Source: Lachnospiraceae bacterium
GTDB lineage: Bacteria; Bacillota; Clostridia; Lachnospirales; Lachnospiraceae
DNA: 33,381 nt
Assembly (NCBI GenBank): GCA_015057085.1
Contig: SVFB01000091.1
Location: 1-33,381 of the forward strand
Direction: 5' to 3'
In this document: positions 13,430 to 32,997 of the stretch, piece after piece
Layout: each line of letters begins with the position of its first letter
Numbering within the stretch: position 1 is the first letter of the stretch
The notes under the pieces: generated by a model
Told to the model about the DNA's origin: nothing
Seen by the model: the letters and a program-made list of their open reading frames with translations, nothing else
Database searches by the model: none
Translations under genes and position numbers: made by a program

Positions 13430-13558
13430 GCTGTTTATCGGGATGTAAACGGACGTACGTGTCATTCTTTGGACCAAGTATCATATGCGGATCGGGCATA
13501 CGGATATAAAAGAATGTAACATTATTTATAAACGATAAGACAAAAAGAGGTGAAAATC
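13430..13558 (+). promoter_or_regulatory. Possible structured leader of rpmE
   Basis: The untranslated stretch is long for a 66-residue ribosomal protein. Small self-complementary pieces are visible: GTTTA...TAAAC near 13433-13450, GAC...GTC around the ACGTACGT palindrome, and TATGC...GCATA near 13486-13502. L31 leaders that bind their own product have been proposed in Firmicutes. I cannot match this one to a consensus by eye, so the call is tentative. Confidence 0.3.
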
Positions 13559-13759
13559 ATGAGAGAAGGAATCCATCCAGATTATTATCAGGCAACTGTA
13601 ACCTGCAACTGTGGTAATACTTTCGTTACCGGTTCTACCAAGCCTGAAATCCATGTGGAAGTTTGTTCAAAGTGCCATCCATTCTATACCGGACAGCAGA
13701 AGGCTGCTCAGGCACGTGGACGTATCGAACAGTTCAACAAGAAGTACGGCATGAACTAA
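13559..13759 (+). CDS. rpmE: 50S ribosomal protein L31, zinc-binding form
   Basis: L31 is a small protein of the large ribosomal subunit. The 66 residues begin [10 protein letters not shown] and carry the zinc ligands Cys16, Cys18, Cys36 and Cys39 (CNCGNTF and [10 protein letters not shown]), so this is the C+ form. Zinc-free paralogues in other bacteria are induced on zinc starvation. Start ATG 13559 follows AAAGAGGTG at good spacing; a GTG at 13550 overlaps that site and is rejected. It is a single-gene unit with its own promoter and a clear terminator. Confidence 0.97.
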
Positions 13760-16924: not shown

Positions 16925-16956
16925 GAGGAAGTATCTTTTGGTACTTCCTCTTTTTT
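16925..16956 (+). terminator. prfA terminator
   Basis: GAGGAAGTA (16925-16933) pairs with TACTTCCTC (16942-16950), then six T. The mgtE promoter starts two bases later. Confidence 0.9.
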
Positions 16957-16957
16957 C

Positions 16958-16986
16958 TTGCAGAAGAGTTCCTTTTTCGCTATAAT
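16958..16986 (+). promoter_or_regulatory. mgtE promoter
   Basis: TTGCAG (16958-16963), 17 bases, TATAAT (16981-16986). Predicted initiation near 16993 gives a leader of about 220 bases. Confidence 0.8.
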
Positions 16987-17032
16987 GTATGCGTATATGG
17001 CCGTTTGCGGCTATGAAAAATGAAAAAACTTG

Positions 17033-17130
17033 AAAGGCAGGTGAGAGAAATGGATAGTTGTGATAGTCACAGTCGAGGTACCAACGAGGTAGAAGATGGT
17101 CACATATGTTCATTGATCGCCTGCTTTTTT
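17033..17130 (+). terminator. Conditional terminator in the mgtE leader
   Basis: RNA arms 17033-17044 and 17117-17128 pair over 12 positions and the second arm runs into six T (17125-17130). The 72-base loop contains most of the leader ORF. The left arm overlaps the leader ORF's ribosome binding site, so translation and hairpin formation should exclude each other. Confidence 0.5.
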
Positions 17131-17139
17131 GTAAGATAA
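17050..17139 (+). CDS. Putative 29-residue mgtE leader peptide
   Basis: A short ORF with a good binding site (AGGTG, six bases before the ATG), nearly the same as the one before mgtE (AGGTGAGAA then ATG). The peptide starts MDSCDSHSRG, has the acidic cluster NEVED and ends SLIACFFVR. It contains three Cys and two His and no proline. Its codons double as parts of the two competing RNA helices. Acidic nascent chains can destabilise ribosomes when Mg2+ is low, which would fit a sensor role, but that is a hypothesis. The alternative is that the ORF is accidental. Confidence 0.5.
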   Translation: MDSCDSHSRGTNEVEDGHICSLIACFFVR

Positions 17140-17214
17140 AACAGGACTTCGATCAGTAATCATATGCTTCCATCATCTACCTCATTCAGATGAAAAAACA
17201 TTATGAGGTGAGAA

Positions 17215-18636
17215 ATGGAAGAAGAATTATTAGAAGACCTTGTTCTTTCTCAAAAGCCGGATTATACAACCGAGATCATAGAGATTCTTCGTGGTACTGA
17301 AGCGCCAAGAGTGATTGCGGATAAACTTTCCGACTACCATGAGGCTGATATCGCTGATATTTTGCCTCTTATTACTGAGCAAGAACGCAAAAAGTTATAT
17401 CGAATCGTAGGAGTACAATCTTTATCTGATATTCTCGAAAGCATGGAAGAAGACGAAGCTTCCAAATACTTAGATGAGATGGATTTGCGCAAAGCGGCAA
17501 CCATCATTTCTAACATGGAGCCGGATAAGGCAGTGGATGTTTTGCGCGAGATTCAAAAAGAGAAGCGTCTGGTATTAATTGACCTTTTGAACGCAGAAGC
17601 CAAGAAAGATATCGCATTGATTGCTTCCTTTGATGAAGATGAGATTGGTAGCAAGATGACCACAAATTATGTGGACATCCGAGAAAACCTGTCGATTAAA
17701 GAAGCTATGAGCTCTTTGGTGGAGCAGGCTGCACAAAATGATAATATTTCTACAATTTTTGTAGTGGACGAGAATGGAATATTCTTTGGAGCCGTGGATT
17801 TAAAGGATTTGATCATTGCAAGACAGGGGACGAAACTGGAATCTTTGATCATGACTTCTTATCCTTATGTATACGGACACGAAATCATCGATGATTGTAT
17901 CGAACGATTAAAGGATTATAGCGAAGATTCCATTCCGGTATTGGACAACGACAATACCCTTTTGGGTGTCATCACTTCTCAAAGCATCATTCAGGTTGTG
18001 GATGAAGCCATGGGTGATGATTACGCGAAGTTGGCTGGTTTGACCGCGGAAGAAGATTTAAAAGAGCCTTTGCTCGAAAGCATGAAAAAGCGTTTGCCAT
18101 GGCTTTTGATTCTTTTGGTGCTTGGAATCGGCGTATCTTCTGTGGTTGGCATATTCGAGAAAGTGGTTGCGGAATTGACGATAATCATGGCTTTCCAATC
18201 GTTGATTCTGGATATGGCCGGAAATGTCGGAACCCAGTCGTTGGCGGTAACCATCCGTGTTTTAATGGATGAAACACTGACGGCAAAGCAAAAGTTTGGA
18301 TTGGTCGGCAAGGAAATGAGAGTCGGCTTATCAAACGGCTTATTACTTGGTATAATTTCGTTTCTCTTTGTAGGGCTATATATCAGCCTGATTAAGGGAA
18401 GGGGATTTGCATTTGGATATTCGGTATCAGCGTGTATCGGTGCGTCACTGGTAGTGGCAATGGTGATTTCATCGGCTGTAGGCACTTTGATTCCGTTATT
18501 CTTTAACAAGATAAAAGTTGATCCTGCGGTTGCTTCCGGTCCGTTGATTACGACAATCAATGACCTTGTGGCAGTCGTGACATACTATGGACTGAGTTGG
18601 ATCCTCTTGATTGAGGTGTTTCACTTAGGTGGATAG
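17215..18636 (+). CDS. mgtE: MgtE family magnesium transporter
   Basis: MgtE is a dimeric Mg2+ channel gated by Mg2+ bound to its cytoplasmic domains. The 473 residues show an acidic N domain (about 1-130), a pair of CBS domains (about 135-265), a linking helix, and five hydrophobic segments from about 290 to the end. Characteristic membrane motifs are DMAGNVGTQS and DPAVASGPLITTINDL, which contain the pore aspartate region. The C-terminus is short. The ATG follows GAGGTG, which can be masked by the leader. The ribosome binding site of the next gene overlaps this stop codon, so the Hpt gene is cotranscribed. Confidence 0.95.
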   Translation: MEEELLEDLVLSQKPDYTTEIIEILRGTEAPRVIADKLSDYHEADIADILPLITEQERKKLYRIVGVQSLSDILESMEEDEASKYLDEMDLRKAATIISNMEPDKAVDVLREIQKEKRLVLIDLLNAEAKKDIALIASFDEDEIGSKMTTNYVDIRENLSIKEAMSSLVEQAAQNDNISTIFVVDENGIFFGAVDLKDLIIARQGTKLESLIMTSYPYVYGHEIIDDCIERLKDYSEDSIPVLDNDNTLLGVITSQSIIQVVDEAMGDDYAKLAGLTAEEDLKEPLLESMKKRLPWLLILLVLGIGVSSVVGIFEKVVAELTIIMAFQSLILDMAGNVGTQSLAVTIRVLMDETLTAKQKFGLVGKEMRVGLSNGLLLGIISFLFVGLYISLIKGRGFAFGYSVSACIGASLVVAMVISSAVGTLIPLFFNKIKVDPAVASGPLITTINDLVAVVTYYGLSWILLIEVFHLGG

Positions 18637-28979: not shown

Positions 28980-30794
28980 ATGGCAGAATCATTAAAAAAG
29001 AGAAATGAAGTCCCGGAGCAATTAAAATGGGATTTAAATTTGATTTATCAAAACGATGAAGCAATGTTTGCAGATCTGAAAAAGGCAATGGAATTGGCAG
29101 ATCAGATCGAAGAAAGCTTCAAGGATCGTTTAAATACAGCAGAGAATATTGTGGCATGCATGGATTTACTGGAGCAGTTTTATCAGTATATTTCATGGGT
29201 AGAGCATTATACTTCTCTTGCCGTATCTGTTGATTATACAGATGCGGATGCACAGAAATTGGATGCAAAGGTGTCTAACGAATACAGAAAGGCTTTCGGA
29301 AAGCTTTCTTTTATCGAAGGTGAAATTGCAAAGGCAGATGAAGCGCAAATCGAGAAAGCCATCGAAAAGACATCTGTCGCTAAGCAATATTTGCGTGATA
29401 TTTTACGCGAAAAGCCACATCAGCTGAGTCCGGAAACAGAGTTTGCGCTCACAACCTTGGAGGATACTTTGAATGCGAGCTATGAGCTTTATGAGCAGAC
29501 AAAGCTTGCGGATATGAAATTCCCGGATTTTGAAGTGGGAGGCAAATCTTATCCCCTTGGCTATTCTTTGTTTGAGGATAATTATGAATACGAGAAGGAT
29601 ACTAAGGTTCGCCGTGCAGCATTTGCAGCATTTTCTTCAAAATTAAAAGATTATATGTATACCACAGCCGGTGAATATCAGGCTTGTGTTAAGAAAGAGA
29701 AGCATCTTGCGGATTTGAGAAAGTATGAGAGTGTATTTGATTATCTCTTATTCCCTCAGAAGGTTACACGTGAGATGTATGATCGTCAGATTGATTTGAT
29801 TATGGAGAAACTTGCGCCTCATATGAGACGTTATGCGAAGCTTCTTAAGCGAACCAATCATCTTGATCGGATGACTTATGCAGATTTGAAAATTGCATTG
29901 GATCCGGAATATGATCCACATGTTACAATAGAACAGTCCAAAGAATATATTTTGGACGGCCTTTCTGTTTTAGGAGAGGAATACGGCGAAATGTTAAAAG
30001 AGGCATATGCGAATCGCTGGGTTGATTTCGCACAAAACGAAGGAAAATCAACCGGTGGATTCTGCGCATCACCGTATCAGAAGGGTTCTTTCATTTTGCT
30101 GTCATGGAACGAGCGCATGAGCGATGTATTCACTCTGGCACATGAGTTGGGACATGCAGGTCACTTCAGACTTTGTCATAATGCGCAAAGTTATCTGGAT
30201 TCAGAAGTATCCACTTATGCGGTTGAAGCACCGTCAACCATGAACGAGCTTTTGATGGCAGAATACTTAAAGGAAAAGAGCGGCGATGATAAGAGACTTC
30301 GCAGATGGGTATTATCGGCACAGATTTCAAATACCTATTATCACAACTTTGTTACACATTTGCTGGAGGCAGCTTATCAGCGCGAAGTATATAAATTAAT
30401 CGATCAAGGCGAAGCGGTACCGGCAGAAACCTTAAATGAAATCTATCGGGGCGTGTTGGAAAAATTCTGGGGAGATGCAGTAGAATTGACAGATGGCTGC
30501 GAGTTGACCTGGATGCGCCAGCCGCATTATTACATGGGCCTGTATTCATATTGCTACAGCGCAAGCCTGACAATCGCAACACAGGTCGCTAAGCGCATTC
30601 GCAAGGAAGGACAGCCTGCTGTGGAAGATTGGAAGAAGACCATGGCCGCAGGCGGAACTGTTACACCGGCTGAATTTGCCCAAATGGCAGGTGTGGATGT
30701 AACAACAGATGCGGCACTCAATGATACCATTGAATACATCGGAAGCATTATTGACGAAATCGAGGCGCTCACCGACGAGTTGGAGAAACAGTAA
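28980..30794 (+). CDS. pepF: Oligoendopeptidase F, M3B family
   Basis: A cytoplasmic zinc metallopeptidase cleaving oligopeptides. The 604 residues fit PepF: a long helical N-terminal part (WDLNLIY start, the M3 N-terminal domain about 115-185) and the catalytic domain with HELGH at residues 388-392 (FTLAHELGHAGH) and a downstream Glu in EAPSTMNELLMAEY. No signal peptide. The ATG follows AAAGGGAG at nine bases. The thioesterase gene starts 19 bases after the stop and a second M3 peptidase follows, so the three are probably one operon. Confidence 0.95.
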   Translation: MAESLKKRNEVPEQLKWDLNLIYQNDEAMFADLKKAMELADQIEESFKDRLNTAENIVACMDLLEQFYQYISWVEHYTSLAVSVDYTDADAQKLDAKVSNEYRKAFGKLSFIEGEIAKADEAQIEKAIEKTSVAKQYLRDILREKPHQLSPETEFALTTLEDTLNASYELYEQTKLADMKFPDFEVGGKSYPLGYSLFEDNYEYEKDTKVRRAAFAAFSSKLKDYMYTTAGEYQACVKKEKHLADLRKYESVFDYLLFPQKVTREMYDRQIDLIMEKLAPHMRRYAKLLKRTNHLDRMTYADLKIALDPEYDPHVTIEQSKEYILDGLSVLGEEYGEMLKEAYANRWVDFAQNEGKSTGGFCASPYQKGSFILLSWNERMSDVFTLAHELGHAGHFRLCHNAQSYLDSEVSTYAVEAPSTMNELLMAEYLKEKSGDDKRLRRWVLSAQISNTYYHNFVTHLLEAAYQREVYKLIDQGEAVPAETLNEIYRGVLEKFWGDAVELTDGCELTWMRQPHYYMGLYSYCYSASLTIATQVAKRIRKEGQPAVEDWKKTMAAGGTVTPAEFAQMAGVDVTTDAALNDTIEYIGSIIDEIEALTDELEKQ

Positions 30795-31242: not shown

Positions 31243-32997
31243 ATGAAGACTGAATGGAATTTGGACAAGCTCTATCACGGGCTGGAGGATCCAAGCTATA
31301 AGGCGGATCAGGAAAAATATAAGGAGATGTCGGACCGCTTCAATAAAATCGTAAGTGATTTGCCGGATGTGCCGACCATCGAAGAAGTAGAGCGAGTTTT
31401 GCTCTTACAGGAGCAGATGACAAACTGCTTTATGAAGATGATTTTTTATGTGGAACTTCGTCAGGCAACCGATACCGAAAACGGTGATTTACTTGCAGAA
31501 ATGAATCATTTGATTCGACTTAATTCCGCAACCATAGCCAGCGAAGCGAAGGCTACAAAGGTGATGGCAAAGTTGCCGGACTTAGATCAAAGCGCGGAAA
31601 AATCAGAAATCATCAAGGATTATAAATTCCTGCTTAAGAAATTAAAAGAGCAAAGCGAACATATGCTCTCTGATGCAGAAGAGGAATTGTATAGCCGTAT
31701 GGATATGACCGGAGGTAGCGCCTGGGGAAATCTTCAGAATTATCTCTCTTCAACTGTAAAAGTAGATTATGAGGGAAAGCAGATTACCTTAACCGACGTG
31801 CGCAATCTGGCATATGATGCAGATCAAAAGGTGCGTAAATCAGCCTACGAAGCAGAATTAAAATGTTATGACAAGATTGCGGATTCTGTCGCTTATGCAT
31901 TGAATAATATTAAACTTCAGATGAACATGATCGCAGATAAGCGCGGATATTTATCACCTCTTGATATGACATTAAAGCAGTCCAATATGAAGAGAGAAAC
32001 CCTTGATGCCATGATGACAGCCATCGAAGAACATTTGCCTAAGGTGCGCAAATATTTCCTTCATAAGGCAAAGAAATTAGGTTATGAAGGCGGATTGCCT
32101 TGGTACGAATTATTTGCACCGTTAGGCCATGATGACAGAAAGTACACTGTGGAAGAAGCAAAAGAAGTATTGACATCCACTTTCGAAAAGTTTACTCCGG
32201 AAATGTCTTCTCTGATGAAGGAAGCCTTCGAAAACGAATGGATTGACTTCTTCCCGAAGAACGGAAAGTCCGGCGGTGCCTTTGATTTAGGTGTACCGAT
32301 GATAAAGGAAAGCCGTGTGCTTACAAACTTTGACGGCACCTTTACCGCAATCGACACATTAGCGCATGAATTAGGTCATTCCTTCCATGATCGTCAGGTG
32401 CAGGATAATCGCCCAATGAATATGGATTATCCAATGCAGGTAGCAGAAACCGCATCCACCTTCAACGAGACCTTCCTCTGCAGCGACTACGTGAAGAATG
32501 CAAAGAATGATGATGAAAAGCTTGCACTGCTCGAGGGCCTTTTGAAAGAGCAGACACAGTGCATCGTCGATATCTATTCGCGCTATTTGTTTGAAACTGC
32601 TGTATTTGAGCAGTGCGAAGACAAATTCCTGATGACAGAGGACTTGAAGAAATTGATGTTGGATGCGCAGAAGAAAGCATACGGAGAAGGCGTTGACGAA
32701 AACTACATGCATCCATATATGTGGGTTTGCAAGGGACATTATTACAGCACCGGTTTAAGTTTCTATAATTTCCCATACGCCTTTGGTGTATTATTTGCTG
32801 CAGGTCTTTACAGCTTATATTTAAAAGAGGGTGGCGAAACCTTCGTGCCAAAATATAAAGCAATGTTAAAAGCCACACCGACATGTACCGTAGAAGAGGC
32901 AGGAGCATTAATGGAAATCGATTTGACCGATAAGAAGTTCTGGGAGGACTCCTTAGAAATGATCGAGCAAAACATCGAAGAATTCTGCAATTTATAG
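31243..32997 (+). CDS. M3 family oligoendopeptidase (second PepF-like)
   Basis: A 584-residue zinc peptidase related to the PepF encoded 450 bases upstream but clearly diverged from it. It begins MKTEWNLDKLYHGLEDPSY, and the catalytic motif is HELGH at residues 375-379 (LAHELGHSFHDRQVQ), with the third ligand Glu in VAETASTFNETFL. The C-terminal part has GHYYSTGLSFYNFPYAFG, a substrate-binding region typical of M3B enzymes. No signal peptide. The ATG follows AAGGAG. It ends the apparent operon and is followed by a long-stem terminator. Confidence 0.94.
   Translation: MKTEWNLDKLYHGLEDPSYKADQEKYKEMSDRFNKIVSDLPDVPTIEEVERVLLLQEQMTNCFMKMIFYVELRQATDTENGDLLAEMNHLIRLNSATIASEAKATKVMAKLPDLDQSAEKSEIIKDYKFLLKKLKEQSEHMLSDAEEELYSRMDMTGGSAWGNLQNYLSSTVKVDYEGKQITLTDVRNLAYDADQKVRKSAYEAELKCYDKIADSVAYALNNIKLQMNMIADKRGYLSPLDMTLKQSNMKRETLDAMMTAIEEHLPKVRKYFLHKAKKLGYEGGLPWYELFAPLGHDDRKYTVEEAKEVLTSTFEKFTPEMSSLMKEAFENEWIDFFPKNGKSGGAFDLGVPMIKESRVLTNFDGTFTAIDTLAHELGHSFHDRQVQDNRPMNMDYPMQVAETASTFNETFLCSDYVKNAKNDDEKLALLEGLLKEQTQCIVDIYSRYLFETAVFEQCEDKFLMTEDLKKLMLDAQKKAYGEGVDENYMHPYMWVCKGHYYSTGLSFYNFPYAFGVLFAAGLYSLYLKEGGETFVPKYKAMLKATPTCTVEEAGALMEIDLTDKKFWEDSLEMIEQNIEEFCNL

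Follow-up and report, generated by a model that had tools for sequence, protein, structure and literature searches.

The window, by which we mean the whole 33,381-nucleotide stretch of DNA analyzed here, comes from a contig of the 2.79-Mb genome of an Agathobacter-like bacterium and contains a gene for the Mg2+ transporter/channel MgtE. The closest relative of this mgtE, at 85–86% amino-acid identity, belongs to Agathobacter ruminis. A rho–rpmE–DUF1385–prmC–prfA cluster lies directly upstream of mgtE, with rpmE, encoding ribosomal protein bL31, at 13550–13759. The features that bound the mgtE leader are the following:

16925–16956, forward strand: intrinsic terminator (9-bp stem plus U6) of prfA, the gene upstream of the leader (terminator by eye; prfA by Pfam PCRF and RF-1)
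16958–16986, forward strand: candidate sigma-A promoter, TTGCAG – 17 bp – TATAAT, from which a transcript would start at ≈16993 (by eye)
17215–18636, forward strand: mgtE, Mg2+ transporter/channel of 473 amino acids (TIGR00400 above cut-off; Pfam MgtE, MgtE_N and CBS)

Because the prfA terminator and a plausible sigma-A promoter precede it, the ≈220-nt leader probably has its own transcript start. The bL31 protein has been reported to counteract ribosome destabilization by acidic residues (PMC8092293), and a functional reason for the position of mgtE beside rpmE and prfA was considered. It was rejected as a general explanation: a prfA/prfB motif lies upstream in only two of the 52 leader loci described below, so the proximity of rpmE is probably a coincidence, and the leader is tied to mgtE rather than to a neighborhood or to synteny. 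Elsewhere in the window, two adjacent genes for M3 family peptidases (oligopeptidase F-like) were seen at 28980–30794 and 31243–32997.

The first-pass annotation had described the region preceding mgtE as a candidate switch, built from a short ORF mostly enclosed by a terminator-like stem, a long helix crossing that stem and a helix masking the mgtE Shine–Dalgarno sequence. These parts, together with those that emerged from comparison with relatives, are:

17033–17044, forward strand: 5′ arm of stem S1, which is the Shine–Dalgarno region of the leader ORF (by eye; folding; shuffle p = 0.003)
17050–17139, forward strand: leader ORF MDSCDSHSRGTNEVEDGHICSLIACFFVR, codons 2–10 of which are part of a conserved peptide family (ORF reading; family searches)
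17053–17079, forward strand: codons 2–10, the proposed sensor, with Asp2, Asp5 and AGT and CGA codons (conservation across leaders)
17086–17108, forward strand: element 1, codons 13–20, the arm of the long helix that lies in the ORF (by eye; three-element and exchange tests)
17117–17130, forward strand: 3′ arm of S1 (17117–17128) and a terminator-like U run (17125–17130), inside the ORF tail (by eye; stem tests)
17161–17183, forward strand: element 2, predicted to pair with element 1 (ON) or, through 17178–17185, with the mgtE Shine–Dalgarno sequence (OFF) (tests and folding)
17203–17210, forward strand: element 3, the mgtE Shine–Dalgarno sequence ATGAGGTG (by eye; tests and folding)

All three pairings were found in place when the sequence was read base by base. 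S1 (17033–17044/17117–17128) is a 12-bp stem with two G·U pairs, the 3′ arm of which enters the U run; it covers the leader Shine–Dalgarno sequence and encloses most of the ORF. The long helix (17086–17108/17161–17183) consists of 19 pairs with one mismatch (17094 × 17175) and one 3 × 3 loop, and crosses S1 because its 5′ arm sits in the S1 loop. The anti-Shine–Dalgarno helix (17178–17185/17203–17210) has 8 bp, one of them U·G, over the mgtE Shine–Dalgarno sequence. Since this helix and the long helix share nucleotides 17178–17183, they are mutually exclusive.

When folded and compared with shuffled sequences, the window leader proved unusually stable, with a z-score of −4.16. S1 reached p = 0.003, the lowest value obtainable with 300 shuffles, and the three-element combination reached p = 0.025 in a contiguous-helix test; in an earlier, looser pairing test, the window had given p = 0.002 in Shine–Dalgarno mode and 0.132 in terminator mode. 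The unconstrained fold of the leader had probabilities of 0.97 for S1, 0.91 for the anti-Shine–Dalgarno helix and 0.00 for the long helix.

The M-box riboswitch is the usual explanation for Mg2+ control of mgtE in Firmicutes. As the annotation had said, the window has no M-box consensus: the M-box model, RF00380, had no match in it, either at the gathering threshold or up to E 10. Indeed, no Rfam family reached its gathering score in the window, and the 17 matches up to E 10, nine of them to microRNA models and the rest to snoRNA/scaRNA, sbrA, and the L10 and ylbH leader models, were all far below gathering.

A feature absent from the annotation is that the N-terminal part of the leader peptide is conserved. 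The leader family precedes mgtE in Lachnospiraceae and a few neighboring families, and its members share a Shine–Dalgarno-led ORF that starts with MDSCDSxGRS or a variant of it, such as MDGSDSHGHK, MTDDSCGRSN, MESGDNGGSK, MDSGSSCKQI or MPDDGHSPKP, residues 2 and 5 usually being acidic. We refer to mgtE genes whose products are ≈47–71% identical to that of the window (86% for A. ruminis) as group A, and to those at ≈23–31% as group B. By a rule that required a Shine–Dalgarno-led ORF with at least four D/E/S/G among residues 2–7, a leader was found at 52 of 96 group-A loci, which include some repeats of one genome (e.g., L024/L084, with identical ORFs, and L039/L122), compared with 36 of 1920 shuffled upstream sequences. 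In a set with one genome per genus, which excluded two contig-edge places (G389 and G541), 60 group-A loci were examined, and the rule found a leader at 36 of them and none at 24; the 36 are a lower bound, since the leader of L082 (MDSCDSYDRS) escaped it. Group-A loci in other families of the class had a leader in five of seven cases (MSNSDSNGRS, MTNSDSCGSSGR and three with MDAGDSCDKRG), and one of the two loci lacking it is truncated. G461 contig 53 has a tandem pair of group-A mgtE genes, L073/L099, of which only the first is preceded by a recognized leader.

A DNA pattern for the ORF start matched in 17 of 348 genomes of the family, including the window's own genome and A. ruminis, and its reversed control matched none. 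All 17 matches were directly upstream of an mgtE gene, recognized by an MgtE_N-like motif. An earlier, stricter version of the pattern had matched in none of 295 genomes, the window's own included. A DNA search with the whole leader in 60 genomes found a match only in the window's own genome, and a search of a phage collection found none. A second match to the leader in the same genome (35 nt, 89%; window 17116–17149 against L003 1140–1175, on the other strand) lies inside a coding sequence that is presumably cbiD-like and was judged to be due to chance.

The leaders collected in this way numbered 66, of which 14 had been added by a peptide or DNA pattern instead of the D/E/S/G rule; removal of redundancy, judged by shared 8-mers, left 61. 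Of these, 85% had an acidic residue at position 2 and 79% had one at position 5. Within residues 2–8, Ser was found in 60 leaders, Gly in 53, Cys in 40, Arg or Lys in 14, and Asp or Glu in all 61, the last not being an independent finding because the leaders were chosen for a D/E/S/G-rich start or an Asp-containing pattern. The fixed places of the acidic residues, at positions 2 and 5, depend less on this selection than the totals do.

Codon choice in the leader start was restricted as well. In codons 2–10, Ser was encoded by AGT in 133 of 154 cases, Arg by CGA in 51 of 55 and Gly by GGG in 27 of 77, while the usage of the same three codons was 11%, 8% and 7% in 37 mgtE genes of the group; for 21 genes of the window, the values were 12%, 10% and 3%. 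The use of rare codons was strongest at codon 9, where RSCU was below 0.5 in 77% of leaders, and at codon 8 (46%). The codons for Asp and Cys varied synonymously (Asp2, GAC 33/GAT 12; Asp5, GAT 32/GAC 13; Cys4, TGT 23/TGC 9) in 48 leaders that were picked by peptide motif, which inflates conservation at the first and second codon positions. The strong choice of CGA, AGT and GGG places some of the conservation in the RNA or the codons and, as judged from these sequences, both the peptide and its codons (or the RNA) are constrained in the leader start. Past codon 10, conservation drops sharply among the 61 leaders. A comparison of the window with A. ruminis shows that the complement of the leader Shine–Dalgarno sequence and the U run are retained in the ORF tail, although displaced by one nucleotide relative to the reading frame; the tail is therefore conserved as RNA and not as peptide.

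The rare codons, clustered at codons 8 and 9, and the serine present in nearly every leader would fit a switch with the same parts in which the ribosome is held by slow decoding, either at AGT, GGG and CGA or through a shortage of charged Ser, Arg or Cys tRNA, so that the signal would be translation speed or amino-acid supply and not Mg2+. There is a precedent in Salmonella mgtP, which has been reported to sense the charging of proline tRNA (PMC3641672). However, the composition of residues 2–8, even with a selection that favors D/E/S/G, makes Cys or Arg supply an unlikely signal, with Cys in 40 and Arg or Lys in 14 of 61 leaders that all carry Asp or Glu; a serine attenuator is less affected by this argument. 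Furthermore, all 17 pattern matches had a Mg2+ transporter gene as their target, and a ribosome held at codon 9 would start to cover element 1. We consider slow decoding an unlikely basis for the switch.

Across the relatives, element 1 is in the ORF at about codons 11–16, just past the conserved codons, and pairs with a downstream element 2, for which element 3 competes. Element 3 is either a terminator arm followed by a U run or, as in the window, the mgtE Shine–Dalgarno sequence; by best helix, the output was a terminator in 38 and the Shine–Dalgarno sequence in 19 of 57 leaders. In L062, a terminator example, AAUAAUACGGUAAAAG is element 1, UUUUUGCCGUAUUGUU element 2 and ACAAUGCGGU element 3, followed by UUUUUU. 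Alone, this leader gave a p of 0.129, because the control admits any ORF helix. In L030, L011, L054 and L055, the U run of the terminator is followed by a short UAUGCCC–UUUUUU-like element; by eye, it is frequently accompanied by a matching GGGC (for L030, GCUC/GAGC) and may form a second small hairpin.

The competition was first assessed by free duplex folding, which proved overly permissive, with 15 of 52 leaders falling below 0.05 once corrected, and was replaced by the contiguous-helix and exchange tests, chosen after the outcome of that first test was known. In the three-element test, where only the ORF was shuffled, 24 of the 61 leaders had p < 0.05, with ≈3 expected; the binomial probability of 6 × 10−16 presumes that the leaders are independent, which relatives are not. 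The other 37 leaders missed p < 0.05 individually, among them that of the closest relative, A. ruminis (p = 0.149).

Since the elements diverge too fast to be aligned, co-variation was tested without an alignment, by exchanging element 1 in the 57 of 61 leaders that had a usable element 2, which was picked regardless of its pairing with the ORF. Pairing with element 2 was −12.31 kcal/mol for the leader's own element 1 and −8.64 kcal/mol for swapped ones (z −10.7; n = 57), and none of 20,000 permutations was as good. When the segment was slid along the leader, codons 6–15 gave z −7.5 and codons 11–20 z −10.0, while codons 1–10, 16–25 and 21–30 and the 30 nt upstream showed no pairing signal (z 0.0 to 1.3), the signal thus being confined to segments that contain codons 11–15. 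With element 2 reversed as a control, z was −2.1 (89 of 5000 permutations), and composition therefore accounts for a small share of the signal. Co-variation across relatives, which the annotation had named as the check on its helices, was thereby found for the pairing of element 1 with element 2 (z ≈ −10).

These data also bear on the alternative that the conserved 5′ segment acts as an aptamer, an orphan riboswitch, and can be read as an ORF only by accident. The constrained third codon positions of Ser and Arg (AGT and CGA) and the length and structure of the leader would be consistent with an aptamer, but the synonymous variation of the Asp and Cys codons in the 48 motif-picked leaders and the changes of length by whole codons (MDSCIGRS, MDSCDSRS) count against it. 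In addition, codons 1–10 had no co-varying partner in element 2, and the window had no Rfam match. An aptamer is thus very improbable.

The stem between the leader Shine–Dalgarno region and the ORF tail, S1 in the window, outperformed shuffled controls (p < 0.05) in 28 of 61 leaders. Of the 61, 46 have such a helix next to a U run, and 22 of these 46 reached the same level. This stem is a recurrent further part of the leader that hides the leader start when no ribosome initiates, and termination may occur there.

The effect of ribosome position was then predicted by folding the leader with the ribosome footprint blocked, as an equilibrium calculation on nested structures that left out the S1/long-helix pseudoknot. 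In the window, opening the mgtE start cost 8.7 kcal/mol with no ribosome, 8.4 with an initiating ribosome, 5.6 with the ribosomal P site at codon 5 and 6.1 at codon 8; the cost then rose to 15.6 at both codons 13 and 16, and was 13.4 at codon 20, 10.1 at codon 25 and 8.6 at the stop codon. The corresponding values for A. ruminis were 11.1 with no ribosome, 8.3 on initiation, 6.1 at codon 5, 7.2 at codon 8, 11.1 at codon 13, 11.0 at codon 16, 8.1 at codon 20, 8.0 at codon 25 and 15.2 at the stop codon. In both leaders, opening was cheapest with the ribosome near codon 5, the second Asp. It was costliest with the ribosome over element 1 in the window and at the stop codon in A. ruminis. The contrast between early and later codons was smaller in A. 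ruminis (6.1 at codon 5 and 11.1 at codon 13, but 8.1 and 8.0 at codons 20 and 25). A ribosome at codon 8 followed by a second, initiating one gave 8.7 kcal/mol in the window, no gain over the leader without a ribosome (8.7), and 7.9 compared with 11.1 kcal/mol in A. ruminis, some gain. An initiating ribosome on the window leader (8.4–8.7) was no better than none. In the modeled ON state of the window, the long helix had a probability of 0.89, and the mgtE Shine–Dalgarno sequence was only ≈0.24 unpaired, mostly residing in a weaker hairpin.

The annotation had proposed that a ribosome on the ORF arm would free the anti-Shine–Dalgarno segment and that one that “stalls early or leaves” would expose the mgtE start. 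The first part agrees with the footprint folding, which predicts a hidden mgtE start when a ribosome covers the ORF arm, and the underlying competition of the ORF arm and the mgtE Shine–Dalgarno sequence for one segment is supported. The second part has to be divided: an early stall favors ON, opening being cheapest at codons 5–8, but after a ribosome leaves, the start is predicted to stay hidden (8.7 compared with 5.6 kcal/mol). As S1 reforms without a ribosome and the mgtE start is then hidden, departure without renewed initiation should give OFF, and because pure drop-off is OFF by folding, a lingering ribosome is the better reading.

The OFF state of the ribosome-free fold, along with the 22 of 46 leaders in which S1 with its U run is better than chance, could be taken to indicate the opposite polarity, whereby leaving or aborted ribosomes would let S1 and its U run terminate transcription and the leader would only couple mgtE to its own translation. 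This would leave the co-varying competition of elements 1, 2 and 3 unexplained, and switching off an importer at low Mg2+ would make little physiological sense. We therefore regard it as exceedingly unlikely. The conserved ORF, the competing, co-varying pairings and the predicted effect of ribosome position show an architecture that is a recurrent ribosome-position switch, well supported by computation.

Our favored reading, which we hold to be probable, is that mgtE is controlled by a translation-dependent leader switch that responds to Mg2+ through the acidic start of the leader peptide. Ribosomes would initiate on the leader ORF and have to clear an N-terminal peptide with Asp2 and Asp5, encoded partly by rare codons. 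With plentiful Mg2+, they would pass on to cover element 1 (codons 13–20), leaving element 2 to pair with the mgtE Shine–Dalgarno sequence, and mgtE would be off. At low Mg2+, ribosomes would pause or abort within the first codons through intrinsic ribosome destabilization; element 1 would then be free to pair with element 2, releasing the mgtE Shine–Dalgarno sequence and turning mgtE on. If no ribosome initiates, S1 would hide the start of the leader ORF and might cause termination at the U run, so that mgtE would stay off. In many relatives, the final step would be an intrinsic terminator rather than masking of the Shine–Dalgarno sequence.

Translation of the leader ORF, its destabilization by the acidic start and the polarity in the cell are what we infer from this architecture. 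That Mg2+ would be the signal is suggested by the early acidic residues, which resemble those of MgtQ and MgtL, and by the Mg2+ transporter target. The likeliest sensor is the acidic N-terminus of this peptide. The stretches commonly cited for destabilization are more strongly acidic than Asp2 and Asp5 are.

A second type of leader was found upstream of group-B mgtE genes in Lachnospiraceae and other Clostridia. Here, an acidic residue is followed by PLP or PVP, as in MDSGPLPGYG, MDPVPLPVNF, MDSSPLPEGK, ..SVDVPLPGRS.. and ..SDTPVPGRS.., at loci that include L128, L131, L137, L157, L158, L161, L211, L216 and L219. In L131 and L137, the PLP/PVP is followed by the codons GGG CGA AGT (GRS), and the tails of several leaders of this type share AIT..W. 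Such a leader with a Shine–Dalgarno sequence was present at 21 of 96 group-B loci, compared with one of 1920 shuffles; the motif was defined once 36 of these loci had been inspected, and 10 of the 60 loci fetched later carry it with a Shine–Dalgarno sequence. A looser form of the motif was found at 15 of the first 36 loci and in 165 of 720 shuffles. The Rfam model detected an M-box at three of 20 other group-B mgtE loci and at none of 20 mixed loci (15 group-B and five group-A loci without the leader). Since both M-boxes and leader ORFs are found at mgtE, several Mg2+ devices coexist there.

In a large group of Lachnospiraceae, the device at mgtE seems to read the behavior of ribosomes on a nascent acidic peptide. 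A broader view, to which we give an even chance, is that Clostridia gauge cytoplasmic Mg2+ by the stability of ribosomes on leader peptides of two designs: the MDSCDSxGRS three-way switch, which would be ON only while ribosomes linger early, and the acidic-PLP leaders (MDSGPLPG, SVDVPLPGRS) in front of the distant mgtE genes. The two designs would resemble the enterobacterial peptides MgtQ and MgtL, and unstable translation would be a general bacterial Mg2+ sensor able to replace the M-box. The conserved ORF start offers a simple handle for finding further leaders and for testing the roles of the Asp residues, codon choice and Mg2+ in early elongation.

A literature search, with subscription papers mostly outside its scope, turned up no description of such an mgtE leader among the matches listed, and the words “mgtE” and “magnesium” are absent from the main text of a survey of premature terminators (PMC2965389). 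Several known systems can nevertheless be compared with it.

Classical attenuators (trp, tna) and translational attenuators of the ermC type resemble the mgtE leader in that the position of a ribosome decides between 1:2 and 2:3 pairing, with a terminator or a Shine–Dalgarno sequence as the output. The mgtE leader differs from them in having neither a drug nor a run of one regulatory codon, Ser and Asp recurring without such a run, and in combining an acidic N-terminal peptide with a transporter gene, mgtE, as the target. The M-box (ykoK) riboswitch, RF00380, is different in kind, being a direct aptamer without an ORF; it is absent from the window, although the same covariance model matched three other mgtE loci.

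On the E. coli mgtL leader, ribosomes have been reported to drop off at an EPDP motif at low Mg2+, after which mgtA is transcribed, and EttA to relieve pauses at acidic residues, such that its loss raises MgtA (PMC11282234). The mgtE leader shares with mgtL an early acidic motif, alternative folds and the proposed logic, in which full translation would be off and early ribosome loss at low Mg2+ on; mgtL, which is found in E. coli and Salmonella, differs in its Rho-dependent termination, its proline codons at positions 3, 5, 7 and 9 and its target, mgtA (PMC11282234, PMC6460261). In peptide sequence, the PLP-type leaders of group B look nearer to mgtL.

The closest experimental parallel is Salmonella mgtQ, an ORF between mgtC and mgtB, whose Asp2 and Glu5 are described as impeding its own translation. 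They are needed for mgtB translation, which is raised by way of competing stem-loops, the ribosome binding site of mgtB being masked in one of them (PMC8092293). Like mgtQ, the window has a short ORF whose second and fifth residues are acidic, and competing stem-loops, one of which masks the ribosome binding site of a transporter gene. However, mgtQ has 8 amino acids, is intergenic and belongs to a Gammaproteobacterium, its target is the P-type ATPase MgtB, and a ribosome on its region 1 favors ON, whereas covering element 1 in the window leader favors OFF. The mgtE leader nevertheless has what characterizes MgtQ and MgtL: a Mg2+ transporter gene preceded by a short ORF that has its own ribosome binding site, conserved acidic first residues (Asp2 and Asp5; Asp or Glu in 61 of 61 leaders, partly chosen for D/E/S/G) and, by computation, mutually exclusive structures set by ribosome position. 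We conclude that it would work like MgtQ and MgtL, with convergence as likely as common descent for peptides this short. The principle would be that of Salmonella and E. coli, but with a different transporter and different RNA parts; if so, ribosome destabilization as a gauge of Mg2+ would be widespread, and not an enterobacterial peculiarity.
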